47,240 nt of DNA from a virus. The notes beneath the pieces were generated by a model. That model was not told the origin of the DNA. It saw only the letters and a program-made list of their open reading frames with translations, and searched no databases. Below, piece by piece: positions 15,321 to 34,452 of the stretch (the stretch's first letter is position 1; every line of letters begins with the position of its first letter). Made by a program: the position numbers and the translations under genes. The stretch lies in the IMG/VR virus record IMGVR_UViG_3300047550_003785, positions 1-47,240 of that record. One strand, 5' to 3'.

Positions 15321-15344
15321 TTGAAAAATAAAAATGGAGCAATA

Positions 15345-16376: not shown

Positions 16377-16382
16377 TTCGTC

Positions 16383-16390
16383 AATAAATA
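16383..16390 (+). promoter_or_regulatory. Late promoter-like octamer AATAAATA
   Basis: It lies in the short gap after the TPR glycosyltransferase, 36 bases before the sulfotransferase ATG at 16427, and fits the late promoter series. Confidence 0.42.
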
Positions 16391-16426
16391 GTTTATATTA
16401 CTATATGATTTTTAAATGGAGTGATC

Positions 16427-17227: not shown

Positions 17228-17249
17228 TATTAAAAAGGAATGAATTGAA

Positions 17250-18604: not shown

Positions 18605-19410
18605 TTACAAATATACATTATGCGTATCAGTTATGTGACATACAGAATAGAGAACATGACAAGAGGATATGTGGAACGGATAGAACTCTTTTATCAAAAA
18701 AATCATTGAAGTCTTTCCTTATCTCTGTACAAAGTTGTGTCGAAAAATTTACCAACACTAAACACACAATAAGGATATTTAATGATAGGTCGACAAAGTG
18801 TCTACTGGACTTTGTTGATAAATGCATCACAGAATTTTCTTCCAAAAATATTATCATTGAGATAGAAAATCTCAAAAACTCTGGTATAACTAATTCAATT
18901 AAACAGTGTTATATTTGGATGCAACTAAACGGAAAGGATTTTGTTTATCAAGTTCAAGACGATTATATGTTTACAGAAAATGCAATTTTTGAGATGCTTG
19001 AGTTACAAAATCATCTCAAAAATGAATTAAACGAGTATGTAGTATTATCTCCATGGAACGATTCTTGGTTATGGAAACTTCCTTACAGAAACAAATCAAC
19101 CCCTAGAGTGGTCATATGTTCCAATCATAGATATTGGATACAATACTACGATATGAGTTGTTCCTTTTTTCTACATCATTCTGAATTTTCAAGACATTGG
19201 GATTACTATCATGATTTTTTCTACCTATTAAAAAAATTACCCAGCTCAAAGGAAAATAATTTAGAAAATCAATCATTGAACTATATGTTAACAAGGAGAG
19301 GTGTTCTGGGTTTGGTTCCAATTAATAGTATTGCGTTTCATCTTCAATCACAATTGGAGGAAGATCCTCATATTGATTGGAGAAAAATTTGGGATTCTAT
19401 AGAGGTTTAA
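18601..19410 (+). CDS. Probable GT-A glycosyltransferase
   Basis: The protein has a GT-A layout: an early strand region with KHTIRIFNDRST, then a helix, then FVYQVQDDYMFTENAIFEML, where QDDY resembles the metal-binding DxD region. The second half carries aromatic-rich acceptor-side sequence (PWNDSWLWKLPYRN) and a C-terminal HLQSQLEEDPHIDW. I infer a family 2-like transferase from this; similarity is distant. It overlaps the FkbM gene by four bases and sits four bases before the next gene. Donor and acceptor are unknown. Confidence 0.6.
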   Translation: MITNIHYAYQLCDIQNREHDKRICGTDRTLLSKKSLKSFLISVQSCVEKFTNTKHTIRIFNDRSTKCLLDFVDKCITEFSSKNIIIEIENLKNSGITNSIKQCYIWMQLNGKDFVYQVQDDYMFTENAIFEMLELQNHLKNELNEYVVLSPWNDSWLWKLPYRNKSTPRVVICSNHRYWIQYYDMSCSFFLHHSEFSRHWDYYHDFFYLLKKLPSSKENNLENQSLNYMLTRRGVLGLVPINSIAFHLQSQLEEDPHIDWRKIWDSIEV

Positions 19411-19414
19411 TATA

Positions 19415-19948
19415 ATGCATGATGAACAGTTTGAATATGTAAAAAGTGTCAGAGAAAAACATCCTTTTTATTTTCTGAATAAAAAAGTCCTTGAAATAGG
19501 GAGCTTAAATATTAATGGAACCATAAGAGTTCTCTTTGAAAATTGTGACTATTTTGGTATAGATGTTGGACCAGGTAAAGATGTAGATTGCGTTTGTTTG
19601 GGCCATGAATTTAATAAGCCAGACAATTTCTATGATGTAGTCATTTCATGTGAAACATTAGAACATGATCCGCATTGGAAACTAACCTTTAAAAATATGA
19701 TTAGACTATGTAAACCAGGTGGTATTGTTATTATGACTTGTGCAACCACAGGTAGAAAAGAACATGGAACTTTGGCATTCGAACCTCAAAGTTCTCCGAA
19801 TACAGTAAAATTAGGATGGAATCATTATAAAAACTTAACCGAATCCGAGCTAATGGAAGATAACGATATAGATGAACTTTTTTATTTTTATTATTTTGAA
19901 ACAAACAAAAGTTCTTGCGATTTATATTTTTATGGCATAAAATGTTAA
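19415..19948 (+). CDS. Class I SAM-dependent methyltransferase (Methyltransf_11-like)
   Basis: KKVLEIGSLNINGTIRVLF is motif I, YFGIDVGPGKDVDCVC carries the strand-2 acidic residue, and FYDVVISCETLEHDPHWKLT with LCKPGGIVIMTCATTG are the typical later motifs. At 177 residues it is a minimal catalytic domain. It is the third methyltransferase of the cassette. Its end overlaps the start of the nucleotidyltransferase by seven bases. Confidence 0.8.
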   Translation: MHDEQFEYVKSVREKHPFYFLNKKVLEIGSLNINGTIRVLFENCDYFGIDVGPGKDVDCVCLGHEFNKPDNFYDVVISCETLEHDPHWKLTFKNMIRLCKPGGIVIMTCATTGRKEHGTLAFEPQSSPNTVKLGWNHYKNLTESELMEDNDIDELFYFYYFETNKSSCDLYFYGIKC

Positions 19949-20355
19949 AAGTTTTTGTTAACGGTACATTTGACGTTTTACACCCTGGGCACATTAATTT
20001 GTTTCAAAATGCAAAAAGTAAAGGTGATTTTTTATTTGTTGCAATAGATTCGGATAATAGAGTTTCACATTTAAAAGGTATAGATAGGCCCTTCAACACT
20101 CAAGAAAATCGAAAATATATATTAGAAAGTATAAAATACATTGATAAAGTTATCATATTTAATGATGACGATCAATTAAAATACTTGATAAAAGATTACC
20201 AACCTGATATAATGATGGTAGGTTCTGATTGGAAAGGTAAAAATATTATTGGTTCTGAATATGCAAAACAACTTATTTTCTTTGATAGAGACAGCCGTTA
20301 CTCAACAACAAAAATCCTTGAAAGTTTTATTAATAGGAGACAGTTGCATAGATGA
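19942..20355 (+). CDS. HldE C-terminal-like heptose-1-phosphate nucleotidyltransferase
   Basis: VFVNGTFDVLHPGHINLFQN contains the nucleotidyltransferase HxGH motif. RPFNTQENRKYILESIKYID, MMVGSDWKGKNIIGSEYA and the late RYSTTKILESF fit the pattern of the HldE (RfaE) adenylyltransferase domain, which makes ADP-D-glycero-beta-D-manno-heptose. Related TagD-type glycerol-phosphate cytidylyltransferases share several of these motifs, so the substrate call rests on the neighbours: an HldE-type kinase next and an HldD-type epimerase two genes on. The ATG at 19942 gives 137 residues; an in-frame TTG at 19915 is inside the previous gene and less likely. Confidence 0.75.
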   Translation: MLKVFVNGTFDVLHPGHINLFQNAKSKGDFLFVAIDSDNRVSHLKGIDRPFNTQENRKYILESIKYIDKVIIFNDDDQLKYLIKDYQPDIMMVGSDWKGKNIIGSEYAKQLIFFDRDSRYSTTKILESFINRRQLHR

Positions 20356-21046
20356 ATATCAATACGGCATTTGCAATAGATTAAGCCCAGAAGTACCAGT
20401 CCCTATACTCGATTTAAAAAGAATTGAACAGAAAAATGGTATGGCTAGCAATGTCAAAGATAATTTGGAAAGTCTAGGCGCACATGTAGTTTCTTTCCTC
20501 AGTAAAAATTCTAAAAAAATTCGTTATATTGATGAGAAATCTAATTATCATTTATTAAGAATAGATAATGATGTAAAGTCTGAGCCATTAAAAATCAACA
20601 CAGATTTTCCTAAAAATATAGATGCAATTGTCATATCAGATTATAACAAAGGTTTTGTTTCTTATGGACTAATCGAAGAGTTAATAAAGAAATACAAAAA
20701 GATTCCCATTTATATTGATACAAAGAAGCAAGACTTGCAAAAGTTTAATGGTTGTTTTGTTAAGATAAATGAATCGGAATACAACAACAGGATCTCAGAT
20801 ACACAAAATCTAATTGTTACATTTGGTGGTTCGCATGTTAAGTTTAAAGATAAAATATATACAGTGCCGAGAGTAAAAGCATTTGATCCATGTGGTGCAG
20901 GTGATACTTTCTTGGCGTCATTTGTTTTCTGCCATCTACTAACAAAAAATATAGACGTTGCAATAGAATTTGCAATTAGAGCATCGACTATTACAGTTCA
21001 ACACATCGGAACGTATAGCCCAAAATTAGAGGAAATATTATGTTAA
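20261..21046 (+). CDS. HldE N-terminal-like (PfkB family) heptose-7-phosphate kinase
   Basis: VLLIGDSCIDEYQYG, then NRLSPEVPVPILDL, closely follows the opening of HldE/RfaE kinase domains. AIVISDYNKGFVSYGL matches its middle, and DPCGAGDTFLASFVFCHLL contains the PfkB GAGD catalytic motif. The protein is about 260 residues against roughly 315 for the usual domain, and the region after NGMASNVKDNLESLGAHV is shortened. The start is uncertain: ATG 20261 or TTG 20318, neither with a clear ribosome site. The kinase frame is +1 relative to the nucleotidyltransferase and overlaps its end, so the same DNA encodes ILESFINR and LKVLLIGD. Confidence 0.8.
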   Translation: MQNNLFSLIETAVTQQQKSLKVLLIGDSCIDEYQYGICNRLSPEVPVPILDLKRIEQKNGMASNVKDNLESLGAHVVSFLSKNSKKIRYIDEKSNYHLLRIDNDVKSEPLKINTDFPKNIDAIVISDYNKGFVSYGLIEELIKKYKKIPIYIDTKKQDLQKFNGCFVKINESEYNNRISDTQNLIVTFGGSHVKFKDKIYTVPRVKAFDPCGAGDTFLASFVFCHLLTKNIDVAIEFAIRASTITVQHIGTYSPKLEEILC

Positions 21047-21387
21047 CAGTTGAAAAAGGATGGGGGCACGAATTAATTTGGGCAAACAACGAGAAATATT
21101 GTGGTAAGTTTCTCAATTTTAAAACTGGTTCAAAATTCAGCATGCATTTTCATGCAGAAAAGGATGAGACATGGTATGTTCTAAGTGGAGAATTCATCGT
21201 GGAATGGATCAATACGAAAGATGCAACTCGTGATTCTCGTATACTAAAAGCTGGTGATGTATGGAGGAATGAACCCTTATTTCCACACCAATTAATATGC
21301 GAAAAAGAAGGTTCTATTATTGAAGTAAGCACGAAAGATAATTGCGATGACAATTATAGAGTGCTGCCAGGAGACAGTCAGAAATGA
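21040..21387 (+). CDS. Cupin domain protein (sugar isomerase-like)
   Basis: This is a single cupin: GWGHELIWANNEKYCGKF, then SMHFHAEKDETWYVLSGEF with the metal-binding HxH...E pattern, then a second motif with LFPHQLICEKEGSIIEVS. It resembles the cupin part of type II mannose-6-phosphate isomerases. It lies between the heptose kinase and the epimerase, overlapping both by a few bases, so it most likely acts on a sugar intermediate of this pathway. Whether it is an isomerase, an epimerase or only a binding protein is not shown. Confidence 0.72.
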   Translation: MLTVEKGWGHELIWANNEKYCGKFLNFKTGSKFSMHFHAEKDETWYVLSGEFIVEWINTKDATRDSRILKAGDVWRNEPLFPHQLICEKEGSIIEVSTKDNCDDNYRVLPGDSQK

Positions 21388-22169
21388 TTCTAGTTACAGG
21401 GCATAAAGGATTTATCGGTTCTCACCTCTACAGGCACATTTTAAATTCTGGTATAAAAGTTCGTGGTTTTGATTGGGGTGACACACTGAATTTGGATGGT
21501 GTAAAAACCGTCATGCATCTAGGAGGCATTTCGTCCACAACAGAAAAGAATGTGGAAAAAATAATGCATCAAAATTATGATTTTAGTGTTGATCTTTTAG
21601 AAACTTGTATCGAAAGGCGTATTCATTTTCAATATTCATCTTCTGCTTCATTATATGGAAAAAATACTTTGTTCGCAGAGGATTCACCGGTTGATCCTCA
21701 AACACCATATGCATGGTCAAAGTACATGTTTGAGAGATACGCAACAAGAAAGGAATCCAATATATTAATACAAGGATTCAGATATTTTAACGTTTGGGCT
21801 GAGACAGGGGAGGGGCATAAGGGCAACCAATGCAGCCCTTATTTTAAATTCGCTAAAGAAGCTAAAGAAAATAATACCATAACACTTTTTCAAAACAGTG
21901 AAAATTGTAAAAGAGACTTTATACATGTCGATCAAATAGTAAAATATCATTTAAAATTCTTAGAAGTCAAAGAAAGTGGTATCTGGAACTTAGGTACTGG
22001 TGTTGCCAAATCTTTTTTAGATGTTGCAAATGAGATATCAAAGAATTACTATAACTGTGAGTATAAATTTATACCAATGCCCGAAAATTTAAAAGATTCA
22101 TACCAATATTATACCTGCGCAGACATGAAAAAGACAGAATCGACACTAAAAAAGTGGAAATTATTATGA
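21384..22169 (+). CDS. ADP-L-glycero-D-manno-heptose 6-epimerase-like (HldD/RfaD)
   Basis: MILVTGHKGFIGSHLYRHIL is the NAD(P) Rossmann motif of the extended SDR family. The catalytic YxxxK is in TPYAWSKYMFERYA. The HldD-specific stretches are clear: GGISSTTEKN, GFRYFNVWAETGEGHKGNQ, then LFQNSENCKRDFIHVDQIV, ESGIWNLGTGVAKSF and FIPMPENLKDSYQYYTCADM. At 261 residues it is shorter than the usual ~310. It would convert ADP-D-glycero- to ADP-L-glycero-heptose, completing nucleotide-heptose synthesis with the two HldE-like genes upstream. It ends the cassette; a promoter-like region follows. Confidence 0.88.
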   Translation: MILVTGHKGFIGSHLYRHILNSGIKVRGFDWGDTLNLDGVKTVMHLGGISSTTEKNVEKIMHQNYDFSVDLLETCIERRIHFQYSSSASLYGKNTLFAEDSPVDPQTPYAWSKYMFERYATRKESNILIQGFRYFNVWAETGEGHKGNQCSPYFKFAKEAKENNTITLFQNSENCKRDFIHVDQIVKYHLKFLEVKESGIWNLGTGVAKSFLDVANEISKNYYNCEYKFIPMPENLKDSYQYYTCADMKKTESTLKKWKLL

Positions 22170-22221: not shown

Positions 22222-23193
22222 ATGTCATTTAAAATCAACAAAAATGTTGTAGTCGATACCGATAGAAACGCTTATTTATCTGGTGCGACACTAGATAATT
22301 ATGTTACTTTAGGAAACCCATTTCAAGGTTCTTCCGCAGGGTTTTCTTCTGGAGGATATGCTTTCCCATCTCCATTTACAAACGTAATAGATAAATTTCC
22401 TTTTGCAACAAATGCAAATGCAACTGATGTTGGTGATTTGACTGTAAGTAGGATATATGTAACAGGACAATCATCAACAATTTCAGGATATACATCAGGT
22501 GGTTTGGCTCCTCCTTACTCAAATGTTATTGATAAATTTCCTTTTGCATCTAATGCTAATGCTACTGATGTAGGAGATTTAACTGTTTCAAGGCAAAGTG
22601 CTGCTGGGCAATCTTCTGTTGTATCTGGTTATTCATCTGGAGGATTTTCTGATTCAATTCCAACCTTTGTTCATAACGTAATAGATAAATTTCCATTTGC
22701 TACAAATATAAATGCTGCTGACGTTGGCGATTTAACGGTGGCAAGAGACCAACCTGCTGGGCAATCATCTTCAATATCCGGTTATTCATCTGGAGGATTT
22801 ACACCTTCAGCATCAAACGTAATAGATAAATTTTCTTTTTCGACAGACGCAAATGCAACAGACGTAGGAGATTTAACTGTTGCGAGATCAAGCTGTGGGC
22901 AATCATCTTCAATATCCGGTTATTCATCTGGAGGATTTACACCTTCATATTCAAACATAATAGATAAGTTTACTTTTGCGGCAAATGCTAATGCTGCTGA
23001 TGTTGGTGATTTAACTGTTGCTAGATCACAGGTAGCAGGACAATCATCTTCAGTTTCCGGATATACTTCTGGAGGAAGTACACCTTCTTCATCAAACGTA
23101 ATAGATAAATTTCCTTTTGCAACCGATGCTAATGCAACTGATGTAGGAGATTTAACGGTAGCAAGATTTGGTCTTGCTGGTCAACAAATTTAG
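22222..23193 (+). CDS. Six-repeat Kelch-like propeller protein 1
   Basis: A short N-terminal anchor (INKNVVVDTDRNAYLSGATL) precedes six repeats of about 48 residues. The core is SGYTSGG, a variable loop, SNVIDKFPFATNANATDVGD, LTVAR, three to four variable residues, GQSS. The glycine pair before the loop and the conserved aromatic and Arg positions fit Kelch blades, and six copies would make one six-bladed ring. It ends FGLAGQQI, the tail common to all six paralogues here. The protein has no signal peptide or enzyme motif. It is likely a receptor-binding or fibre-tip protein; the Kelch call is by pattern only. Confidence 0.7.
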   Translation: MSFKINKNVVVDTDRNAYLSGATLDNYVTLGNPFQGSSAGFSSGGYAFPSPFTNVIDKFPFATNANATDVGDLTVSRIYVTGQSSTISGYTSGGLAPPYSNVIDKFPFASNANATDVGDLTVSRQSAAGQSSVVSGYSSGGFSDSIPTFVHNVIDKFPFATNINAADVGDLTVARDQPAGQSSSISGYSSGGFTPSASNVIDKFSFSTDANATDVGDLTVARSSCGQSSSISGYSSGGFTPSYSNIIDKFTFAANANAADVGDLTVARSQVAGQSSSVSGYTSGGSTPSSSNVIDKFPFATDANATDVGDLTVARFGLAGQQI

Positions 23194-23200
23194 GTAAAAA

Positions 23201-24223
23201 ATGCCACTTAAAACTAAAAGTATAATTTTTGCAGACAATACAACATTAAGCAGTTCTTTTGCTAATGTTTTTATTACAGGCACCGACTCTTTCTTAAAAG
23301 TTGGTGGTTCTTTGCAAGGAGAAATATCAGGTTACACCTCTGGTGGCTATATTCCAGCATTACCTACTGTTTCAAATGTAATTGATAAATTTCCTTTCTC
23401 TACCAATTCAAATGCGAGCACCGTTGGTAATTTAACAGTTAGGAGGCTGGGTTCTGCTGGGCAATCTTCTACAGTTTCAGGTTATAATTCAGGAGGATTA
23501 GCACCACCAAGCGCGCCATCACCAATAGTATCGAATGTAGTAGATAAATTTCCTTTTGCAGCAAATGCAAATGCAACTGATGTTGGTGACTTAACAGTTG
23601 CAAGATACTATGTATCTGGGCAATCATCAACGGTTTCAGGATACACATCAGGAGGAACATCTCCTTATTCAAATGTGATTGATAAATTTCCTTTTGCGAC
23701 GGATGCAAACGCAACAGATGTTGGTGATTTGACTTTGGCTAGAGCAGAAAGTGCTGGGCAATCGTCTGTTGTTTCTGGTTATACATCAGGAGGATATTCA
23801 TTTCCACCAAGTTCTTACTATAATGTAATAGATAAATTTCCATTTTCTACAAACGCAAACGCAACAGATGTTGGTGATTTGGTTTTATCAAGATATGGAA
23901 TGGCCGGACAATCTTCTTCTATTTCCGGTTATACTTCTAGCGGTACAGATGGCAGCACATCTTTAAATATAATTGATAAATTTCCTTTTGCAGCAAATGC
24001 AAATGCAACTGATGTTGGTGATTTATCAGTGGTGCGATACCGAACAACGGGGCAATCTTCTGTTGTCTCTGGTTATAATTCTGGTGGAACTCAACCGTTT
24101 CCATTCAATCCTTTCACTAGCTATAATATAATAGACAAATTTCCTTTTGCTGTAGACGCAAATGCAACTGATGTTGGTGACTTAACAGTTGCAAGATATA
24201 GCCCTGCTGGACAACAGGTATAA
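23201..24223 (+). CDS. Six-repeat Kelch-like propeller protein 2
   Basis: It has the same architecture as the preceding gene, eight bases away. The N-terminus (LKTKSIIFADNTTLSSSF) differs; six repeats follow. Loops between SGG and the VIDKF strand vary in length and content: YIPALPTVS, LAPPSAPSPIVS, TSPYS, YSFPPSSYY, TDGSTSL (after a Ser-Gly variant) and TQPFPFNPFTSY. The end is YSPAGQQV. Variation concentrated in loops with a constant strand core suggests a fixed scaffold carrying different binding surfaces. Confidence 0.7.
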   Translation: MPLKTKSIIFADNTTLSSSFANVFITGTDSFLKVGGSLQGEISGYTSGGYIPALPTVSNVIDKFPFSTNSNASTVGNLTVRRLGSAGQSSTVSGYNSGGLAPPSAPSPIVSNVVDKFPFAANANATDVGDLTVARYYVSGQSSTVSGYTSGGTSPYSNVIDKFPFATDANATDVGDLTLARAESAGQSSVVSGYTSGGYSFPPSSYYNVIDKFPFSTNANATDVGDLVLSRYGMAGQSSSISGYTSSGTDGSTSLNIIDKFPFAANANATDVGDLSVVRYRTTGQSSVVSGYNSGGTQPFPFNPFTSYNIIDKFPFAVDANATDVGDLTVARYSPAGQQV

Positions 24224-24227
24224 AAAA

Positions 24228-25232
24228 ATGACATACAAATTAAGTAAATTTTCATTTATATCTTCAGCAACTAAACTGACAAGCACAGGCATGTCCTCTG
24301 CAAGCAATGAAACTGGAGTAAATCAAGCTTTTATTGAAATTTCGAATGTTTTAGGTGGAAAAATATCTGGTTATACGTCAGGAGGCCAAACTTCCGGATT
24401 TATAAATTCAAACGTAATAGATAAATTTCCTTTTTCGACAGATGCCAATGCAACAGACGTTGGAGATTTAACTGTTGCTAGATCACAGGTAGCAGGCCAG
24501 TCTTCATCAATTTCGGGATACACATCAGGCGGTCCTTTGTCAAATGTAATTGATAAATTTCCTTTTGCAATAAATGCAAATGCTACTGATGTTGGTGATT
24601 TGACTGTTGCAAGAAACGGCGTAGCCGGTCAATTTTCTACAGTATCCGGTTATACAACAGGAGGTTACGTACCTCCAAATATAAGATCAAACGTAATAGA
24701 TAAATTTCCTTTTGCTACAGATAGAAATGCTGCTGACGTTGGAGATTTAACTGTTGGTAGAAGCATTTTGGGAGGTGGTCAATCATCAACAATTTCAGGA
24801 TACACATCAGGCGGTTTTGCTCCTCCTTTCTCAAATGTAATTGATAAATTTCCTTTTTCGACAGATGCCAATGCAACTGATGTAGGAGATTTAACTATTG
24901 CTAGATATGGTATAGCTGGACAATCATCTTCAATATACGGTTATTCATCCGGAGGATTTACTGGATCTAATTCAAACGTAATAGATAAATTTCCTTTTGC
25001 AATAAATGCAAATGCTACTGATGTTGGTGATTTAACCTTTGCTAGTGCTAGAAGAGAACCGGCCGGACAATCATCTATAGTTTCCGGATATACATCAGGA
25101 GGTGCGAATGAAAATTATTCTCCTTCGATTTTAAATATAATAGATAAATTTCCTTTTGCAACCGATGCTAATGCAACTGATGTAGGTGATCTAACAGTGG
25201 TTAGATATGAATCGGCCGGTCAACAATATTAA
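24228..25232 (+). CDS. Six-repeat Kelch-like propeller protein 3
   Basis: The start is ATG 24228, four bases after the previous stop; an in-frame TTG at 24189 lies inside that gene and is rejected. The anchor is longer (LSKFSFISSATKLTSTGMSS), followed by six repeats ending YESAGQQY. Repeat 5 to 6 has a small insertion (FASARREPAGQSS). It closes the first block of three paralogues and is followed by the second sulfotransferase. Confidence 0.7.
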   Translation: MTYKLSKFSFISSATKLTSTGMSSASNETGVNQAFIEISNVLGGKISGYTSGGQTSGFINSNVIDKFPFSTDANATDVGDLTVARSQVAGQSSSISGYTSGGPLSNVIDKFPFAINANATDVGDLTVARNGVAGQFSTVSGYTTGGYVPPNIRSNVIDKFPFATDRNAADVGDLTVGRSILGGGQSSTISGYTSGGFAPPFSNVIDKFPFSTDANATDVGDLTIARYGIAGQSSSIYGYSSGGFTGSNSNVIDKFPFAINANATDVGDLTFASARREPAGQSSIVSGYTSGGANENYSPSILNIIDKFPFATDANATDVGDLTVVRYESAGQQY

Positions 25233-25252
25233 TTTTTTAACTATGGTGAATT

Positions 25253-26092
25253 ATGAATATGATACATTTTTGTGGTGGGCTTCCCAGATCGGGAAGTACC
25301 ATTTTGATGAATATACTGCAACAAAATCCTAGAGTTTTCACAACAGGCACATGCGCTCTTTTAAATATCTTACAAGATAATATCTTAATTAAATCAAGAT
25401 ACTCAGAACCGTTTCAAGCTATGTCAACAGAACAAGCTGACAAAGCAATGTATGGGCTTATTCATGGTGCAACAAAAGGATGGTTTGAAGCTTTAACCGA
25501 AAAGCCAGTTGTCATATCCAAAAGACATGGATGGTCAAATCTGTTTCATCTTTTTACACAATCAAAATTTATATGTGTCATTAGAGATTTAAGAGATATT
25601 GTTGAAAGTTTCGAAAAAATAGCAAACAAAACTCTAGCACTTCATTCTTTTGGTAACGATGGTAGCTTTACCCCTTCGATGCATTATCAAGAAAAATATC
25701 GTTATTATTTTAATGAAAGTAACTCTTTATCGAAAAATTTACAATATGAAATTCCAAGAATGATGGAGATTTTTAAACAAAAGAAATCTAACGTAATTTT
25801 TATACGATATGAAGACTTCACAAAGCAACCATATTATATTTTAGAAAAACTATATAAATTTTTAAATGAAGAATATTTTGAACACAGTTTAAATAAAATT
25901 AACCAATCAGAATTATTTGAACATGATCATGCTTACTTCAGAGAAAGAACGGAACATACCACACTGAGTAAGTTTAAATATTTTTCCGAGCCAGAAAGAG
26001 TTCTTTCGGATAAATTTCACGATTTAGTCGTGCAAGAAAATAAATGGTTTTATGAGGCATTTTATCCAGATGTACTAACGAATAAACTATGA
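25253..26092 (+). CDS. Sulfotransferase family protein (second copy)
   Basis: FCGGLPRSGSTILMNILQQN is the PAPS 5'-phosphosulfate loop, and KFICVIRDLRDIVESFEKIA is the 3'-phosphate motif. VIFIRYEDFTKQPYYILEKL is the late motif usual in sulfotransferases. The length of 279 residues is normal. It is only distantly similar to the first copy at 16427, so this is not a recent duplication. It sits between propeller genes and the double oxygenase, ten bases after the Kelch block. Target unknown; possibly a fibre protein or surface glycan. Confidence 0.85.
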   Translation: MNMIHFCGGLPRSGSTILMNILQQNPRVFTTGTCALLNILQDNILIKSRYSEPFQAMSTEQADKAMYGLIHGATKGWFEALTEKPVVISKRHGWSNLFHLFTQSKFICVIRDLRDIVESFEKIANKTLALHSFGNDGSFTPSMHYQEKYRYYFNESNSLSKNLQYEIPRMMEIFKQKKSNVIFIRYEDFTKQPYYILEKLYKFLNEEYFEHSLNKINQSELFEHDHAYFRERTEHTTLSKFKYFSEPERVLSDKFHDLVVQENKWFYEAFYPDVLTNKL

Positions 26093-26102
26093 AAGGTGAA
26101 TG

Positions 26103-27386
26103 ATGAAAAGCACTATTGAATATTTTGAGAAGAACGGATACGTAGTTTTAAAAGATGCATTGACTAAACAACAATGTAAACAGCTAACAAAACACATGTT
26201 CGATTTGCATGAAAATGGTAAGTTGGTCAAAGATGAACAATGCCCACTTTCAGATGCAATATATGGTGATCCAATCTTCGATAACATTTTACAAAAATTT
26301 GCAAAGCCTATTGGTGATGCAGTGGGAAAAGAATTACTACCCACATACACATATGCAAGAATTTATCGACCAGGCGAAATATTAAAAAAACATAAAGATA
26401 GGCCAGCATGTGAAATAAGCGCAACAATGACTTTGGGTTTTGATTCGGAACCTATTTGGCCTATATTATTTGACGAAGAAAAGGAAATACCCGTTGAATT
26501 GGATGTGGGGGAAATGGCAGTATATAAGGGCTGTGACATTCTACATTGGAGAACTCCTTTTAAAGGGCAATGGCACGTTCAGGTTTTCTTGCATTATGTG
26601 GATGCAAATGGTCCATATAAAAATCATTTCAAAGATGGAAGAGATTCATTTGGTGTTCAAAAACAATCAAATGTTGAAAATAAAAAACGTTCTTTTATAA
26701 ATGAATTGTCTGAGCAACAAAGTAAAAATATAGAACAACAAATCACAGTACCTAAACCGATTTTTAATTCTGTTATCATACCAAGTGGCGATAATTATTT
26801 TCCTGGTTACTTTTGTATTGATTCAAAGAATGTGCCAGAATTAAAATTCAATTTGTCTGAATGCAATTCAATAATTTCTCTATCGAAAAAAAGATATCCA
26901 ACAACAGCCAGTGTTGGTGGTTCTACTGAAAATAGTAGAATTTCTAAAGATATAAGATCGGCCAATATTTTCAATATAGAAAATAATGAAGAAAATAAAT
27001 GGATCTATGAAAAAATAGCAAACATTGTTTCTTTTGTAAACGCTGTGCATTTTAAATATGACATTTCAGGAATTACACACGGAATTCAGTTGATTGAATA
27101 TTGTTCTGAAGATAAAGTACAGGGTCATTATGATTGGCATGTCGATTCTGGAAATGGGCAACCAGCATCTAGAAAAATATCTGTAACCATTCAGCTATCG
27201 GATCCGGAAGATTATGAGGGGTGCGAACTTATTATAAATAACCATGCTCATATAGTTACCGGAACAAAAGAAAAAGGTTCAGTACACCTTTTTCCCAGTT
27301 ACATGTTACATAAAGTAGAACATGTTACCAAAGGTACAAGATATGCATTAGTAATTTGGGTGCATGGTCCAGGAAGATTTAAATAA
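26103..27386 (+). CDS. Double-domain 2OG-Fe(II) oxygenase (prolyl hydroxylase type C-terminal half)
   Basis: Two oxygenase domains are fused. The N-terminal domain has the iron HxD at residues 97-99 (LKKHKDRPACEIS) and a distal His in GCDILHWRTPF. The C-terminal domain has HYDWHVDSGNG, with HxD at residues 346-348, the distal His in SYMLHKVEHV and the 2OG-binding Arg in GTRYALVIW. The C-terminal half looks like the P4Hc/PiuC type; the N-terminal half is less typical. The ATG at 26103 fits AAGG six bases upstream better than the ATG at 26100. The enzyme would hydroxylate a substrate using oxygen and 2-oxoglutarate. It shares a late module with collagen-like and propeller genes, so a virion protein is a conceivable target. 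Confidence 0.82.
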   Translation: MKSTIEYFEKNGYVVLKDALTKQQCKQLTKHMFDLHENGKLVKDEQCPLSDAIYGDPIFDNILQKFAKPIGDAVGKELLPTYTYARIYRPGEILKKHKDRPACEISATMTLGFDSEPIWPILFDEEKEIPVELDVGEMAVYKGCDILHWRTPFKGQWHVQVFLHYVDANGPYKNHFKDGRDSFGVQKQSNVENKKRSFINELSEQQSKNIEQQITVPKPIFNSVIIPSGDNYFPGYFCIDSKNVPELKFNLSECNSIISLSKKRYPTTASVGGSTENSRISKDIRSANIFNIENNEENKWIYEKIANIVSFVNAVHFKYDISGITHGIQLIEYCSEDKVQGHYDWHVDSGNGQPASRKISVTIQLSDPEDYEGCELIINNHAHIVTGTKEKGSVHLFPSYMLHKVEHVTKGTRYALVIWVHGPGRFK

Positions 27387-27396
27387 GGAGATTTTA

Positions 27397-27744
27397 ATGG
27401 CTGTCGTAGAATATAAAGATCATGTTTTTCACGGTGACCACAGAAGACTTATACCAGGATTTATCAGTAATGGTGGGCAGTGGCAAAATCCAAAGAATCA
27501 TACATTTGTTGGCTGGGTTAAGGAAAATGCAGACTTTTATGTCCCTTGGGCAACATTAAAAGCATTGTCAAAAGAAGATTTTGTTCAAAGGGCTTTACAA
27601 ATTCACGCTGAAAATCCTATATCTTTGCCTATAGACCGGATGAATCCAGCAAGAGAAATGAAAGTTTTAACAGAACAAGAAGTTATAGAACACGCGCAAG
27701 AATGGTATGATAACTACGTTTCATATTGCACTGAACATCATTAA
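27397..27744 (+). CDS. Hypothetical protein, 115 aa
   Basis: The ATG at 27397 follows AGGAG by six bases; a GTG at 27364 is in frame but inside the oxygenase gene. The sequence is AVVEYKDHVFHGDHRRLIPG, then NHTFVGWVKENADFYVPW, followed by an acidic helical half (ALSKEDFVQRALQIHAENP). There are no transmembrane segments. I do not recognise the family. It is followed 14 bases later by a 311-aa gene. Confidence 0.55.
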   Translation: MAVVEYKDHVFHGDHRRLIPGFISNGGQWQNPKNHTFVGWVKENADFYVPWATLKALSKEDFVQRALQIHAENPISLPIDRMNPAREMKVLTEQEVIEHAQEWYDNYVSYCTEHH

Positions 27745-27758
27745 AAAATGAGGTTATA

Positions 27759-28694
27759 ATGGAAGAAAAAGGTAATGAATTGACTGTTTTTGAGGAAATA
27801 CGTAGAGATTTAGCACTCAATAGTAATGACGTAAAGATTCCTCTTTCTATGGTTTTTGGTAGAGGCACAACTGCTGGAAATGTCCAGAGTTTTGGTGGTA
27901 ATTCTTTAGTTGAAAATACGCAAAAAGTTGATCTGGCTCTTGCTAATGTCGGTGAACTTCAAACTATTTGGAATCACAGTCACACTCAATGGATGTGGAA
28001 GCATTTAAATTTAAGTTGGCATGCTCCTTTGAAAAATATGAGGCAAATTGCGGCTGAGATAAACAGAAAAAAATCTGCTCTGAATGAAGCTAAATGGAGA
28101 CAAATTGAATCTGAAGTAAAGATTAGAAAAATAGAAGATGAATTGCAAAAAGGTAATCAAGACGGGTCTTTGGATTATTGGAGAGAAGTAGAACTTAAAA
28201 TTAAGTTGGCAAAACTAAAAGAAGGTATTGCAGAAGGTGTAGTGGTAATTGAAGGTGCAATGAAAGATGTTCTTGTTTTAAATGAACTATATGAACAATT
28301 AAAACAAAAAGTTTCAGGGTTTTCTGAGGCTGATGTAGAAAAAGAAGAAACAAAAAATCATTTGAAAAGAGCATTAGTTCAAAGTATACGAGATGTTCGA
28401 ATGACAGGTGCAATCAGTAAAGGTGAACAGGAATATATCGAACAAATTGGTATCAATCCAATGAAATTGCAATCTCTTTTAAGAAAGTATGTAGAAAGTG
28501 AGGCAAAGTCTGAATCATGGGATGTTAGTGAACTGTATGAATTTGTGGATGGATTGACAGATGAGCTAGTTGACTCATATAAAGTCGATGCAAAAAGAAT
28601 GGCTTTACAGGGATTTTCTACAGAAATAATGGAAAATTTTACACAATCTGAAAAAGTGGCCCTCCTTTCAGACGATAGACAGGATGAAAAATAA
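27759..28694 (+). CDS. Conserved phage-type hypothetical protein with long helical region, 311 aa
   Basis: The N-terminus (VFEEIRRDLALNSNDVKIPL, SMVFGRGTTAGNVQSFGGN) is followed by WNHSHTQWMWKHLNLSWHAP and then a long charged helical part (EINRKKSALNEAKWRQIESE, onward to about residue 200). The wording of the N-terminal segment resembles a conserved hypothetical protein I associate with marine T4-like phages; I cannot name its role. The stop overlaps the next start (TAATG). The length and helical content suit a structural or assembly protein. Confidence 0.6.
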   Translation: MEEKGNELTVFEEIRRDLALNSNDVKIPLSMVFGRGTTAGNVQSFGGNSLVENTQKVDLALANVGELQTIWNHSHTQWMWKHLNLSWHAPLKNMRQIAAEINRKKSALNEAKWRQIESEVKIRKIEDELQKGNQDGSLDYWREVELKIKLAKLKEGIAEGVVVIEGAMKDVLVLNELYEQLKQKVSGFSEADVEKEETKNHLKRALVQSIRDVRMTGAISKGEQEYIEQIGINPMKLQSLLRKYVESEAKSESWDVSELYEFVDGLTDELVDSYKVDAKRMALQGFSTEIMENFTQSEKVALLSDDRQDEK

Positions 28695-28825
28695 TGCCTC
28701 CATTAATGCTTGCTAAAAAAATTTTAGAATTAGATGAAAAAGAATTACTTAAAATTCTAAAACAATTGGAAATGGAAGAAAGAGATTTTTATAACCTCCT
28801 TAGGGAAAAAGTAGAAGATATTTAA
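28694..28825 (+). CDS. Small ORF, 43 aa, tightly coupled
   Basis: The ATG at 28694 is in a TAATG overlap with the 311-aa gene, and the TAA ends directly before the ATG of Kelch protein 4 (28826). It encodes a short helical acidic peptide, with parts such as MLAKKILELDEKELLKILKQ and MEERDFYNLLREKVEDI. The exact fit between two genes argues that it is real. Function unknown. Confidence 0.55.
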   Translation: MPPLMLAKKILELDEKELLKILKQLEMEERDFYNLLREKVEDI

Positions 28826-29857
28826 ATGACCATACGAATAAGAAAAAATAGTATTGAATTTGAAACTCCCAATGGAAACACTTATACTATTTCAGAGGTC
28901 AGTGATGGTTTCACTTTTGATGGGAGAATATCCTTTGTAAATAATATTTTAAGTTCTGGTTATATTTCGGGAGGTTACACAGGGACACCTCCCTCTATTA
29001 ACTTTGTTGTAACAAATCAAATTCAAAAATTTCCTTTTGCGGTTGATACAAATTCTACTGATGTTGGTGACTTAACCTTCTCTAGAAGTGATGCTGCTGG
29101 ACAGTCATCCACTGTTTCTGGCTATACTTCAGGTGGTTCAACTGGAAGTTTTTCAAACGTAATAGATAAATTTCCTTTTTCGGCAAATGCTAATGCAACA
29201 GACGTTGGTGATTTGACTATTGCAAGATATGGTGTCGCTGGGCAATCTTCTTCTATTTCCGGTTATTCATCCGGAGGTTTATCTCCTCCATCCAATTTTT
29301 CAAACGTAATAGATAAATTTCCTTTTGCAGCAAATGCAAATGCAACTGATGTTGGAGATTTAACTGTTGCAAGGCGATTTCCTGCTGGACAGTCATCTAC
29401 AACTTTTGGTTATTCAACCGCAGGAAATGTTCCAATTAACAGTGGAAGTAATGTGATAGATAAATTTCCATTTGCGACAGATGCTAATGCAACTGATGTT
29501 GGAGATTTAACTGTTTCGAGGCAAAGTCCTGCTGGGCAATCATCCACAGTTTCAGGTTATACTTCAGGGGGATACACAGTTCCGATTAATATTCAAAATG
29601 TAATAGATAAGTTTCCATTTTCAACGGACGCCAATGCAACTGATGTTGGTGATTTGTCTCAATCAAGATCGTCTGTTTCTGGGCAATCATCCTTTGTTTC
29701 CGGTTATACATCAGGAGGTAATATTAGTACAAGTCTTTCAGCTCCCGTTTTTTTCGTAAATACGATAGATAAGTTTTTATTTTCAACGGACGCTAATGCA
29801 ACTGATGTTGGTGATTTACTTGCTGCATTAAACGATTCAGCAGGTCAACAAGTTTAG
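28826..29857 (+). CDS. Six-repeat Kelch-like propeller protein 4
   Basis: The N-terminus MTIRIRKNSIEFETPNGNTY leads into a segment with SDGFTFDGRISFVNN. It has the pattern I-x-I-x-x-N-x-I-x-F...G-x-x-x-x-G that paralogues 5 and 6 also show, suggesting a shared anchor. Six repeats follow, the first divergent (NQIQKFPFAVDTNSTDVGD), and the last ends NDSAGQQV. It starts the second block of three. Confidence 0.7.
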   Translation: MTIRIRKNSIEFETPNGNTYTISEVSDGFTFDGRISFVNNILSSGYISGGYTGTPPSINFVVTNQIQKFPFAVDTNSTDVGDLTFSRSDAAGQSSTVSGYTSGGSTGSFSNVIDKFPFSANANATDVGDLTIARYGVAGQSSSISGYSSGGLSPPSNFSNVIDKFPFAANANATDVGDLTVARRFPAGQSSTTFGYSTAGNVPINSGSNVIDKFPFATDANATDVGDLTVSRQSPAGQSSTVSGYTSGGYTVPINIQNVIDKFPFSTDANATDVGDLSQSRSSVSGQSSFVSGYTSGGNISTSLSAPVFFVNTIDKFLFSTDANATDVGDLLAALNDSAGQQV

Positions 29858-29865
29858 GAATAAAA

Positions 29866-30873
29866 ATGCCAATAAACATTTACGAAAATGAAATTGAATT
29901 CGACAGTGTTTCTATTTCAGTTGATGAACAGGGGCTTGTTTTAAACGGAAACTTTGTTGCTGCCGCTCTTGGTAATACAGTAGCACAAGGTGTTATAGCT
30001 GGTTATACATCAGGTGGTTACATTTCTCCATCTTCACAATCAAACGTCATAGATAAATTTCCCTTTGCCACAAATGCAAATGCAACTGATGTTGGTGATT
30101 TAACTATTGCTAGATATTCCGTTGCTGGGCAATCATCTACTGTTTCTGGATACACATCAGGTGGATATTCTTTTCCACCTGCCACTTTTTATAATGTAAT
30201 AGATAAATTTCCTTTTGCAAGTAACGGAAATGCGACAGACGTTGGTGACTTGTCTGTAACAAGGAGAGGACCATCAGGGCAATCCTCTAGTATTTCTGGT
30301 TATAGTTCTGGAGGAAATACTCCTCCTTTATCAAATGTAATAGATAAGTTTCCATTTTCCACAAATGCAAATGCGACTGATGTTGGAGATTTAACTAGTT
30401 CTAAAAGAAATCTTTCAGGTCAATCTTCTACTGTTTTTGGATATGCCTCTGGTGGTTACTCAACAACCGCCTCACCAAATTTTTTAACCGCAATAGATAA
30501 ATTTCCCTTTGCCACAAATGCGAACGCAACTTCTGTTGGTAATTTAACATTTTCAAGACAAACTGGAGGAGGGCAATCATCCATAGTTTCAGGTTATACA
30601 TCAGGAGGAAGTCGCCCTTTGCCAGTAAATATAATAGATAAATTTCCATTTGCGACAGATACAAATGCAACTGACGTAGGAGATTTAACTGTAAGTAGAA
30701 CAGGCACAGGGCAATCCTCAACTGTTTCTGGATATACTTCTGGAGGTTATGTCAATCCTCCATTTTCCTATTCAAATGTCATTGATAAATTTCCATTTGC
30801 GACAGATGCAAATGCAAGTGATGTTGGAGATTTAACTGTCACAAGAAGCAGTGCTGCCGGGCAACAAATATAA
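29866..30873 (+). CDS. Six-repeat Kelch-like propeller protein 5
   Basis: The N-terminal anchor is MPINIYENEIEFDSVSIS, then DEQGLVLNGNFVAAALG. Six repeats follow with variable loops such as YSFPPATFY, YSTTASPNF and YVNPPFSYS. One loop (YSFPPATFY) nearly repeats a loop of protein 2 (YSFPPSSYY), which suggests exchange between the two blocks. The end is SSAAGQQI. Confidence 0.7.
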   Translation: MPINIYENEIEFDSVSISVDEQGLVLNGNFVAAALGNTVAQGVIAGYTSGGYISPSSQSNVIDKFPFATNANATDVGDLTIARYSVAGQSSTVSGYTSGGYSFPPATFYNVIDKFPFASNGNATDVGDLSVTRRGPSGQSSSISGYSSGGNTPPLSNVIDKFPFSTNANATDVGDLTSSKRNLSGQSSTVFGYASGGYSTTASPNFLTAIDKFPFATNANATSVGNLTFSRQTGGGQSSIVSGYTSGGSRPLPVNIIDKFPFATDTNATDVGDLTVSRTGTGQSSTVSGYTSGGYVNPPFSYSNVIDKFPFATDANASDVGDLTVTRSSAAGQQI

Positions 30874-30882
30874 GGTTTCAAA

Positions 30883-31881
30883 ATGTCAATTCAAATATTA
30901 CCGGATAAAATTTTAATAGGACCATATACACTTAGAGACCTGGGTGACGGTAGGTTATCTTTTGACGGTAATGTCTATGCAAAATCATACGCACCGCAAA
31001 CAGGCAAATATTTAGCCGGCAACCTTTCTGGGTATACATCAGGAGGATATGTTAGCACATACGTAAATACAATAGATAAATTTCCTTTTGCAGCAAATGC
31101 AAATGCAAGTGATGTTGGAGATTTAACCTCTAGTAGATATAGCCCCGCAGGGCAATCTTCAACAGTTTCAGGTTATGCATCTGGAGGTGCTTCTTCAAGC
31201 CCCACCAATATAATAGATAAATTTCCTTTTGCGACAAACGCAAATGCTGCCGATGTTGGTGATTTAAGTGTTGCAAGGCAAAATGTATCTGGCCAATCAT
31301 CTTCTTTTTTTGGTTATACATCAGGAGGAAATGAGGCTCCTGGAGCGGCATCAAATGTGATTGATAAATTTCCTTTTTCGACAAACGCAAATGCAACTGA
31401 TGTAGGAGATTTAACTGTAGCAAGATACTTATCCACGGGGCAATCATCTACTGTTTCAGGTTATACATCAGGAGGTTCACCTCCTTTTAGAAATGAAATA
31501 GACAAGTTTCCTTTTGCAACAAATGCAAATGCAACTGATGTTGGCGATTTAACTATTCAAAGAGCTTCTCCTGCTGGGCAATCATCTACTGTTTCAGGTT
31601 ATTCATCCGGCGGTGATAATGGTGGCCCAACATCCACCACGGATGTAATAGACAAGTTTCCTTTTGCAACAAATGCAAATGCAACTGATGTTGGCGATTT
31701 AACTGTATCAAGATATAGTCCCGCAGGGCAATCATCTATAATTTCGGGTTATTCATCTGGAGGTCTTACTTTTAGTATTTCAAACGTCATAGATAAATTT
31801 CCCTTTGCCACAAATGCAAATGCAACTGATGTTGGTGATTTGACTGTATCTCGTTGGCTTGCGACAGGGCAACAAATATAG
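30883..31881 (+). CDS. Six-repeat Kelch-like propeller protein 6
   Basis: The anchor is MSIQILPDKILIGPYTLRDL, then GDGRLSFDGNVYAKSY. Six repeats follow, with one unusual loop (DNGGPTSTTD) and an end of SRWLATGQQI. Nucleotide stretches such as gacaagtttccttttgcaac are shared across repeats within this gene and with its paralogues, which is a substrate for recombination. It is the last propeller gene before the APS kinase. Confidence 0.7.
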   Translation: MSIQILPDKILIGPYTLRDLGDGRLSFDGNVYAKSYAPQTGKYLAGNLSGYTSGGYVSTYVNTIDKFPFAANANASDVGDLTSSRYSPAGQSSTVSGYASGGASSSPTNIIDKFPFATNANAADVGDLSVARQNVSGQSSSFFGYTSGGNEAPGAASNVIDKFPFSTNANATDVGDLTVARYLSTGQSSTVSGYTSGGSPPFRNEIDKFPFATNANATDVGDLTIQRASPAGQSSTVSGYSSGGDNGGPTSTTDVIDKFPFATNANATDVGDLTVSRYSPAGQSSIISGYSSGGLTFSISNVIDKFPFATNANATDVGDLTVSRWLATGQQI

Positions 31882-31921: not shown

Positions 31922-32776
31922 ATGAAAAAGATTTTGATCATGGGTCTTCCAGGTTCAGGTAAGACATACTTTGCGGAAAGATTGAAAAAATATTTAGAAG
32001 ATAATAGCAATTTACAGAATTGCCCAGAAGGGACATTATCAAATTATGAAACTGTTCCATTACACTGGAAAGCAAAAGTTGACTGGTTCAATGCCGATGA
32101 AGTTAGAAAGCGGTATAACGATTGGGATTTTAGTCACGAAGGTAGAATCCGTCAAAGCCTAAGGATGGCTGAGTTTGCCTTAAAATGCAAAGGTGATTAT
32201 GTGATTTGTGATTTTGTCGCACCTCTAGTTGAGATGAGAAACAACTTCAAAGCAGATTGGACCATCTGGATGGACACAATCGATGCAGGAAGATTTGAAG
32301 ACACTAATAAGGTATTTGTACAACCAGAAGTGTATGATTTTAGAATTAATGAAATGAATGCTGAAAAATGGGTTTCATTTGTCGGTGAACATATCTTAGA
32401 AAACAAAAGACGCCCAACTTTTGACTGGAAAAAAGAGACTGTACAAATGTTGGGAAGATGGCAACCATGGCATGCTGGGCACCGTGCTTTATTTGAGAGA
32501 GCAATCAGAAAAACTGGGCAAGTGGTAATTCAAATTCGTGATTGCCAAGGTTGGCAAGGCACTAATCCTTTTGCGATTGAACAAGTTAAAAACTATATTC
32601 GAAAAGATTTGGATCTACAGTATCAAGGAATGTATACGATTCAGGTTGTTCCAAATATCGTAAATATCACGTATGGAAGAGATGTTGGTTACAAGATTGA
32701 ACAAGAAGTTTTTGACGAATCAATACACAACATCAGCGCAACAAAGATTAGAAAAGAAATGGGTTTCGATAAATAA
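31922..32776 (+). CDS. APS kinase-like / nucleotidyltransferase fusion, 284 aa
   Basis: Residues 8-15 (GLPGSGKT) form a Walker A loop. WFNADEVRKRYNDWDFSHEG, RIRQSLRMAEFA and VICDFVAPLVEMR follow the pattern of adenylylsulfate kinase (CysC). From about residue 176 the second domain has LGRWQPWHAGHRALFERAI with the HxGH nucleotidyltransferase motif and ends ISATKIRKEMGF, as in NadM-like transferases. APS kinase makes PAPS, the donor for the two sulfotransferases in this window. The role of the second domain is unclear. AGGA precedes the ATG. It is an APS kinase by pattern; a related small-molecule kinase cannot be excluded. Confidence 0.72.
   Translation: MKKILIMGLPGSGKTYFAERLKKYLEDNSNLQNCPEGTLSNYETVPLHWKAKVDWFNADEVRKRYNDWDFSHEGRIRQSLRMAEFALKCKGDYVICDFVAPLVEMRNNFKADWTIWMDTIDAGRFEDTNKVFVQPEVYDFRINEMNAEKWVSFVGEHILENKRRPTFDWKKETVQMLGRWQPWHAGHRALFERAIRKTGQVVIQIRDCQGWQGTNPFAIEQVKNYIRKDLDLQYQGMYTIQVVPNIVNITYGRDVGYKIEQEVFDESIHNISATKIRKEMGFDK
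32768..32775 (+). promoter_or_regulatory. Late promoter-like octamer GATAAATA before gene 13
   Basis: It overlaps the stop region of the APS kinase gene and lies 28 bases before the ATG at 32804. It would drive genes 13 to 17. Confidence 0.5.
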
Positions 32777-32803: not shown

Positions 32804-33580
32804 ATGCCAGCAGTAACTAATAGAAACACATTCAAAGACTATTGTTTACGAAGACTGGGTTTTCCTACGATTGAAATAAACGTTGATGATGATCAGGTAG
32901 AAGACCGTATCGATGACGCTTTACAATATTGGCAAGATTATCACTTTGATGCTTTACAGAAGGTTTATTATATCCGTGCATTAAACTCTACGGATATGAC
33001 CAATAAGTACATAAATTTGGATCCTTCTGTAACACTAGACACAAGTGGCAACTCTGTTAATATTATTGGTGTTACTCGTGTATTTCCAATCTCAGACTCA
33101 ATTAACCAAAACAATATGTTCGACCTCAGATACCAACTGCGTCTGAACGAACTGTATGATTTTACGTCTGCCTCCTATATCAATTATACTTTAACAATGC
33201 AGCATCTCCGTTCATTGGAACTTCTATTTACCGGTGAAGTTCCAATACGCTTTCAACGTCACATGCATCGTTTGTACTGTGACTGGGGTTGGGGAACTGC
33301 TGTTCAAGCTGGTACAGTCGTTATTGCTGAATGTTTTGCGCTTATCAAACCAGAAGATTATATTTCGGTGTGGAATGACCGATGGTTAAAAGAGTATGCT
33401 ACCTCATTGATAAAAAGAAACTGGGGAAGCAATCTCAAAAAGTTTGCTGGAGTACAACTGCCCGGAGGTGTAATGCTGAATGGGCAAGTAATTTATGATG
33501 AGGCTGTAGAGGAAATAAAGGCTCTAGAACAAGAAATGCAAAGCAAATATGAACTTCCAGTGGACTTTTATCTAAACTAA
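32804..33580 (+). CDS. 13: Neck protein gp13 (head completion)
   Basis: The protein is 258 residues long. Its N-terminal FKDYCLRRLGFPTIEINVDD leads into QVEDRIDDALQYWQDYHFDA, the conserved opening of T4-like gp13, and HRLYCDWGWGTAVQAGTVVI lies near the middle. The neighbours 14, 15, 16 and 17 keep T4 order. It joins the portal and the tail at the head-tail connector. Its stop overlaps the next start (TAATG). Confidence 0.92.
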   Translation: MPAVTNRNTFKDYCLRRLGFPTIEINVDDDQVEDRIDDALQYWQDYHFDALQKVYYIRALNSTDMTNKYINLDPSVTLDTSGNSVNIIGVTRVFPISDSINQNNMFDLRYQLRLNELYDFTSASYINYTLTMQHLRSLELLFTGEVPIRFQRHMHRLYCDWGWGTAVQAGTVVIAECFALIKPEDYISVWNDRWLKEYATSLIKRNWGSNLKKFAGVQLPGGVMLNGQVIYDEAVEEIKALEQEMQSKYELPVDFYLN

Positions 33581-34452
33581 TGGCTACCAATCTATATTTT
33601 AATAACTTCAATTCAAGCCCAGAACAAAGACTTGTCGAGGACTTGATGATCGAGACCATTAAAATTAATGGTGTCGATTGCTATTATATTCCAAATATAA
33701 ATGAAGCAGCCAGAGACCTTCTTTATGGTGAAGATCCACTTAAAAAATTTACTGCCGCATACCCTCTTGAATTGTATATCACAAATGTAGATGGTTACGA
33801 AGGTGAGAGGGAGTTTTTCTCTAAATTCGGGCTTGAAATTCGTAACAACATGTCGGTAATTATATCAAAAAGATCGTTTGCTCGTTGGGTTCCACAGACA
33901 TATCACCGCCCAAGAGAAGGTGATTTAATTTACATACCTTTCTTTGCGCAGACGGGTGAGATGTATGAGATTAAATATGTAAACTTCTCAGAAGCATTCT
34001 ATGTTTTAGGTAACAAGTATCCATATTTCTATAAACTTGAGTTAGAGAAATTCAAATACTCACAAGAAACTATCGATGTTGGTATTCCAATTATAGATGA
34101 ATTGGTATATCAAGATGCATATTCAATAGAATTGACGGTAAACAAAGCAACAGGAAATGGAAACTTTATACGTGGCGAATCTATACATAACACATCAAAT
34201 ACTGTATATGGAACAGTAACAGACTGGAATGCAAACACAGGTATTATAAAAGTAACCGATCTGTATGGAACTTTTGCTAACAGTATGCTTCTGCGTGGAA
34301 ATACAAGTAATGCATCTTATACAACAACAGCAGCACCGGATGAATTAAAAGATAATGAAATAAGAGAAATGTATGATAACAAAGTAATTCAAAACGAAGC
34401 TGATGTTATCATAGACACAACAGAAACAAATCCTTTTGGTAGAATATCATGA
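33580..34452 (+). CDS. 14: Neck protein gp14
   Basis: FNNFNSSPEQRLVEDLMIET, GVDCYYIPN and REFFSKFGLEIRNNMSVIIS, then RPREGDLIYIPFF, match the conserved face of gp14, a neck protein that completes the head with gp13. The length of 290 residues is close to the family. It begins in a TAATG overlap and ends in an ATGA overlap with gene 15. C-terminal residues about 185-250 are beta-rich (SNTVYGTVTDWNANTG), as in other marine relatives. Confidence 0.9.
   Translation: MATNLYFNNFNSSPEQRLVEDLMIETIKINGVDCYYIPNINEAARDLLYGEDPLKKFTAAYPLELYITNVDGYEGEREFFSKFGLEIRNNMSVIISKRSFARWVPQTYHRPREGDLIYIPFFAQTGEMYEIKYVNFSEAFYVLGNKYPYFYKLELEKFKYSQETIDVGIPIIDELVYQDAYSIELTVNKATGNGNFIRGESIHNTSNTVYGTVTDWNANTGIIKVTDLYGTFANSMLLRGNTSNASYTTTAAPDELKDNEIREMYDNKVIQNEADVIIDTTETNPFGRIS

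Follow-up and report, generated by a model that had tools for sequence, protein, structure and literature searches.

The stretch analysed here, called the window below, is the 47,240-base record IMGVR_UViG_3300047550_003785 (positions 1-47,240) of an uncultured T4-like aquatic phage. It encodes six related repeat proteins, which are predicted to be β-propellers with Kelch-like blades and are referred to as propellers. Their genes form two triplets on either side of an enzyme cassette:

22222..23193, plus strand: propeller gene 1; 323 residues; 39-residue anchor and six Kelch-like blades; ends GQQI
23201..24223, plus strand: propeller gene 2; 340 residues; 43-residue anchor and six blades; ends GQQV
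24228..25232, plus strand: propeller gene 3; 334 residues from ATG; 47-residue anchor and six blades; ends GQQY
28826..29857, plus strand: propeller gene 4; 343 residues; 44-residue anchor and six blades; ends GQQV
29866..30873, plus strand: propeller gene 5; 335 residues; 45-residue anchor and six blades; ends GQQI
30883..31881, plus strand: propeller gene 6; 332 residues; N-terminal β domain (1-30), linker (about 31-45) and ring (47-332)

All six genes were confirmed on the plus strand at the positions given in the initial annotation, and a regular-expression split of them returned 36 repeats, exactly six per gene. The short distinct anchors and the common ending described there were likewise seen in all six genes: the N-terminal stretches (39-49 residues) are unlike one another, and every protein ends with GQQ-x. 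Gene 3 most likely begins with the ATG codon at 24228; if read from the TTG listed at 24189, it overlaps gene 2. The repeat consensus is GYTSGG-(loop)-NVIDKFPFATNANATDVGDLTVAR-(loop)-AGQSSTVS. The alignment of the 36 repeats showed hardly any change in the strand core; the segment following SGG differs between repeats in both length and sequence, and the three to four residues preceding GQ are variable as well. A 15-base core pattern gave 29 exact matches on the plus strand, none on the minus strand and none in the reversed-pattern control, so the repeat pattern is beyond chance. No further copies of the motif were found elsewhere on the plus strand of the window.

Genes 1-5 are 60-63% identical to gene 6, and the median identity among the blades of one protein is 0.61-0.70. 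It had been proposed that the triplets arose by block duplication. This was rejected, because the same-position pairs across the triplets (0.67 for genes 1 and 4, 0.66 for genes 2 and 5, 0.69 for genes 3 and 6) are less alike than genes 1-3 are among themselves (0.70-0.74). Among the relatives, it is the enzyme cassette that stays constant, and different numbers of propellers are found to its left and right.

A scan of viral contigs yielded 71 propeller loci with 242 complete open reading frames (ORFs) of exactly six repeats (174 unique), and the GQQ-x end was present in 207 of the 242. When a broader model and more loci were used, six blades were detected in 243 of 271 non-redundant complete ORFs; most of the remaining ones are full-length but diverged, and missed blades are the likely cause. 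Each of eight large contigs has 6-13 matching places, and the anchors of the relatives range from 15 to 316 residues. Nucleotide and protein searches of the phage collection with the window propellers gave no match, and a plasmid search gave none either. With the propeller of the relative L043 as a query, the phage collection returned Synechococcus phage S-SKS1 only, as a weak match. A cellular origin was considered and rejected, as there were only five cellular matches, limited to two metagenome-assembled genomes. In one of these (Nau_16), propeller genes lie in contigs L238-L240 and L242, binned to a gammaproteobacterial genome, which are probably binned phage contigs; for L240, which carries a propeller array, this is probable, though not proven.

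Predicted fold and position of the variable loops

An AlphaFold model was built for gene 6 only, from an alignment of 60 relatives; the other five proteins are taken to share its fold by similarity. The closed six-blade ring expected by the initial annotation was obtained, with a predicted local distance difference test score (pLDDT) of 94.8 and a predicted template modelling score of 0.86. A small N-terminal β domain (residues 1-30) is followed by a low-confidence linker (about 31-45) and by the ring (47-332), which is closed by the C-terminal strand 328-331, the GQQ end. The Keap1 ring is closed by a terminal βA strand as well (PMC4668279). The model thus has the features of the Kelch fold, namely a closed ring of six blades with four strands each, Gly-Gly on strand B and closure by a C-terminal strand A. 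The SGG motif falls at the end of strand B; the second Gly of the pair is present in 36/36 repeats, the first in 34/36, and in the wider repeat alignment the values are 95-96%.

The nearest structures were Kelch domains. VIA-align placed the designed Kelch propeller SAKe6BE first (Z 41.8, root-mean-square deviation 1.6, 276 residues), the Keap1 Kelch domain 1x2j aligned with Z 41.0 over residues 46-332, and the best solved structure in Foldseek was KLHL12 (E 4e-21). Sequence identity in the structural alignments to solved Kelch domains was 14-22%. A PDB profile search gave weak matches to Kelch chains, the best being the designed SAKe6FR (E 0.0017), and the Pfam Kelch models gave no match up to E 1. 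Because the profile match is faint and a Pfam Kelch match is missing, the modelled propellers are described as Kelch-like by fold and not as members of the Pfam Kelch family by sequence. Pfam matches to DUF4907, P_proprotein, DNase_NucA_NucB and similar families were judged spurious; they are short and partial, with almost no stretch passing alone.

The distribution of variation was determined for 828 repeats from 138 non-redundant proteins. Mean column entropy was highest in the BC (3.20 bits) and DA (3.13 bits) loops, followed by 1.65 in AB, 1.23 in CD and 0.93 in the strands, which bears out the claim that the loops are more variable than the strands. The observed placement of variation in the loops ranked first among 48 circular shifts. 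The BC loops are proline-rich, 1-19 residues long, and distinct in 804 of 828 cases. In Keap1, the BC and DA loops form the substrate pocket (PMC4668279), and homology to Keap1 suggests that the variable loops of the phage propellers share one face.

β-Propeller folds are common among glycosidase-like and galactose-oxidase-like enzymes. The predicted fold would therefore also suit a soluble or tail-borne enzyme acting on host glycans, which we regard as extremely improbable: the structures that match best are Kelch domains that bind proteins, the hypervariable positions occur only on the binding face, and the repeat alignment contains no conserved loop residues on that face that resemble a catalytic set.

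Head replacement and blade homogenisation

We compared 37 orthologous slots between related contigs (not all independent, as some contigs recur). The median nucleotide identity was 0.95 for CC311, a protein of the enzyme cassette, 0.88 for the anchors, 0.73 for the propeller core and 0.41 for the loops. In swapped slots, the neighbouring genes are 88-100% and the anchors 80-97% identical at the nucleotide level, and identity is 50-70% over the propeller from the anchor boundary to the stop codon, with 33-57% in the loops. In the pair L045/L075, the cassette genes have 99.5-100% nucleotide identity. In one slot of this pair, identity starts at 0.95-0.97 in the intergenic DNA and stays there for most of the anchor; almost the entire propeller is at 0.5-0.7, and directly after the stop codon the value is 0.98 again. 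Another slot differs mainly around blade 1, with blades 4-6 identical. The pairs L042/L067 and L074/L076 have the same identity profile as the swapped slot of L045/L075. Swapped and intact slots occur within one pair in L041/L115, L113/L115 and L074/L108, often side by side. As in adhesins, the N-terminal part is conserved and the C-terminal head is variable; attachment would be through the N-terminal part. The likeliest cause of head replacement, judging from these sequence profiles, would be recombination between the anchor and the stop codon.

The strain of the window itself is represented by three contigs, including the window, and these have no single-nucleotide polymorphisms in the propellers and no loop differences. 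This places the turnover between lineages and argues against hypermutation within a population. A target of a diversity-generating retroelement would be expected to have a reverse transcriptase and a template repeat nearby and to show adenine-directed changes between strains; no reverse transcriptase was found among the scanned ORFs of the window, which extend to 42597. The idea of a fixed scaffold with exchangeable binding loops is upheld among related natural strains, and the exchange there is sharper than had been supposed: whole heads change behind a retained anchor, with one blade-centred case. It was absent from the three contigs of the window's strain.

Repeats are hard to assemble, and the replacements might be artefacts of assembling near-identical copies. 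In contig L079, one ORF has five blades and a frame shift at its end, and the propeller at 1863-2897 of L054 has five blades, one having been lost in frame relative to L032, through either a true deletion or an assembly collapse. Such an origin of the head replacements is nevertheless very unlikely, as the same strain was recovered with identical propellers in three contigs and the frames are open and six-bladed over hundreds of ORFs. Moreover, heads that are only 50-70% identical are too distant for copy collapse, and both flanks are continuous.

The same profiles bear on the possibility that the propellers are a non-adhesive decoration of the virion, i.e., structural fibres or whiskers near the neck, in which the loops vary because they are unconstrained. 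The genes adjoin the neck genes gp13 and gp14, and a purely structural function would suit the near-symmetric core of the repeats. We consider this reading unlikely, because neutral drift explains neither the abrupt fall in identity where the anchor ends and its recovery after the stop codon, between flanks at ~0.9-1.0, nor the swapped and intact slots side by side, and because the variation is specific to the face that binds in Keap1.

Between contigs, same-blade identity was 0.588 and other-blade identity 0.581, i.e., there is almost no memory of blade number. At fourfold sites, repeats of one protein had an identity of 0.48, those of one contig 0.43 and those of different contigs 0.34, and codons at the same position were more alike than codons for the same residue elsewhere in 24 of the 24 contigs tested. 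This excess at fourfold sites and same-position codons indicates that, within a phage lineage, blades arise from one another, over and above the effect of selection on the protein. A uniform core could offer recombination a foothold. In contig L048, a 121-nucleotide exact tract is common to two propeller genes (478-1443 and 7947-8852) that flank the enzyme cassette, suggesting recombination across it. Exact tracts between genes of one genome are suggestive only, as their control is inflated by redundant contigs.

Genomic setting and the enzyme cassette

The gene order of the window is collagen-like tail-fibre genes, enzyme cluster, gp13, gp14, gp15, gp16, gp17, gp18, gp19 and portal, and the propeller array is located between the tail-fibre genes and gp13/gp14. 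The host recognition cluster of pelagi- and cyanomyophages occupies the same location, before gp14 (PMC7029224). The accompanying features are as follows:

3-4544 and 7446-11612, plus strand: tail-fibre genes matching collagen-like tail-fibre PHROGs; left side of the host-recognition cluster
4583-4936, plus strand: tail-fibre assembly-like gene; left side of the host-recognition cluster
25253..26092, plus strand: sulfotransferase-family protein, PF13469; 26 family members in 25 loci
26100..27386, plus strand: 2-oxoglutarate (2OG)-Fe(II) oxygenase family protein, PF13640; N-terminal half resembles phrog_2954; 41 loci, the most frequent member
27364..27744, plus strand: p126, conserved small protein without assigned function; 28 loci; accompanies CC311 and the oxygenase
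27759..28694, plus strand: CC311, strongly conserved, predicted helical; 38 loci
32804..34452, plus strand: gp13 and gp14, neck genes; right-hand boundary of the host-recognition cluster

The cassette that travels with the propellers consists of 2OG-Fe(II) oxygenases, a sulfotransferase and two proteins of unknown function. Its members recur beside propellers in differing genomic settings, and additional small oxygenase families are found beside propellers in many loci. CC311 is ~60% identical across distant phage contigs; it had no match in annotated phage records, and its model is of low confidence (pLDDT 67.6). In a reverse search, propellers were present at 69 of 80 CC311 loci, the other 11 including short contigs and also some of 8-11 kb. 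The corresponding value for gp14 loci was 0 of 80, a contrast inflated somewhat by the shorter length of those contigs (median 8.1 vs. 13.1 kb). As CC311 also occurs without propellers, it is a companion and not a strict partner.

Several other features of the region were recorded. The tail-fibre gene at 201-4544 has a long internal tandem repeat and, judged by eye, an S74-like chaperone-type C-terminus. A second propeller-type protein within the fibre region, of 1123 residues with 20 RCC1 repeats, is encoded at 11949-15320. The stretch 15321-22169 is dense in enzymes (a second sulfotransferase, three methyltransferase-like proteins, PfkB-like and cysteine-dioxygenase-like proteins and a nucleotide-sugar epimerase), as expected of modification of surface sugars or small molecules. 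A fusion of a kinase and a cytidylyltransferase-like protein lies between the propellers and gp13 (31922-32776). An Rfam search gave no match. The portal protein has its best identity, ~54%, to Synechococcus phages. A marine picocyanobacterial host was tried as a candidate through a psbA-type gene, and none was found in eight propeller contigs.

The propeller protein of the relative L043 is fused to a collagen-like fibre stalk. Matches to phrog_972 were obtained for L017 and L067, and the N-terminal parts of several relatives match tail-fibre PHROGs. These fusions and matches, together with a location in the host-recognition cluster, where the surrounding genes are virion genes, speak against intracellular protein-binding adaptors of many specificities that would serve host takeover or counter-defence. 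Poxvirus and animal Kelch domains bind peptides inside cells, the BFVD fold matches include poxvirus Kelch proteins, and there are several propellers per genome; even so, we think it quite improbable that the phage propellers act in this way.

Comparison with known systems and the proposed role

The propellers have six four-stranded blades, the strand-B Gly-Gly and the C-terminal strand-A closure in common with Keap1, KLHL12 and the SAKe proteins, and the loops that form the substrate face of Keap1 are those that vary in the phage family (PMC4668279). They differ in the missing Pfam Kelch match (E 1) and the low identity (14-22%), in blades that are far more alike internally (0.61-0.70), and in the absence of BTB/BACK domains. 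Among phages, BFVD matches showed a Kelch-type propeller in protein CBB_552 of Pectobacterium phage CBB, in Pseudomonas giant phages and in Burkholderia phage BcepSaruman, with ~10-19% identity in the fold matches. CBB_552 was found in the mature virion (PMC5259590); arrays of slot-specific anchors with exchanged heads are not described for these proteins in the portions of the sources consulted. Closer in sequence (27-29% identity) is the propeller of Synechococcus phage S-SKS1 (M4QT40 and an unannotated stretch; phrog_19111), which has several copies and a sulfotransferase close by but is divergent and uncharacterised. In this phage (L080, 5374-6171), a propeller-encoding stretch lies in an unannotated gap near the sulfotransferase gene. 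Marine host-recognition clusters and metaviromic islands occupy the same place, before gp14, and combine a conserved N-terminus with a variable C-terminus (PMC7029224, PMC3909814); Fe(II)-oxygenase genes have been noted in marine islands as well (PMC3909814). In these papers, the heads are identified as C1q-like, lectin-like, YadA or gp38, and neither Kelch domains nor propellers are mentioned (PMC7029224, PMC3909814).

The location in the cluster, the precedent of conserved N-termini with variable C-termini and the virion Kelch protein of CBB make recognition heads the best reading. We consider it probable that the propellers serve as virion-displayed recognition heads within the host-recognition cluster of a T4-like phage, and that they have diversified through the replacement of whole heads together with homogenisation of the blade core. 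Each gene would encode one subunit, in which an N-terminal anchor specific to the slot is followed by a six-bladed head of the Kelch type. The anchor would dock the head on the virion, and the head would display twelve variable loops, a BC and a DA loop from every blade, on one predicted ligand-binding face. The blade core would be held nearly uniform within each phage. Recombination between the anchor and the stop codon would replace the heads slot by slot and keep the docking ends. The most likely role would be recognition of variable host-surface ligands, with the 2OG-Fe(II) oxygenases and the sulfotransferase as part of the same cassette. The virion location is suggested by analogy, with CBB_552 as the only precedent.

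Several points weigh against recognition heads. The window's own propellers lack a stalk and have only 39-49-residue anchors, and a hidden Markov model of the anchors gave only two non-propeller matches, both weak. A search for heads carried on a clearly different anchor gave none, and the slot comparison covers only slots with a recognisable anchor. All strain comparisons come from metagenome assemblies, in which repeats are prone to mis-assembly.

A more far-reaching proposal, which we regard as rather unlikely, is a modular repertoire of antibody-like binders. Each phage would have 6-13 near-symmetric Kelch propellers, with heads swapped behind fixed anchors, blades recombining, and oxygenases and sulfotransferase modifying the proline-rich loops or the fibres.

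As probable recognition heads, the propellers point to a class of phage recognition proteins that is widespread and has hardly any cultured representatives. Their scaffold is otherwise familiar chiefly from protein design and from the ubiquitin ligases of animals. The family combines a near-symmetric scaffold and a defined variable face with natural strain pairs that differ in few heads. Such matched pairs make the assignment of heads to hosts directly testable, and the family would offer a natural set of loops on a scaffold amenable to design.

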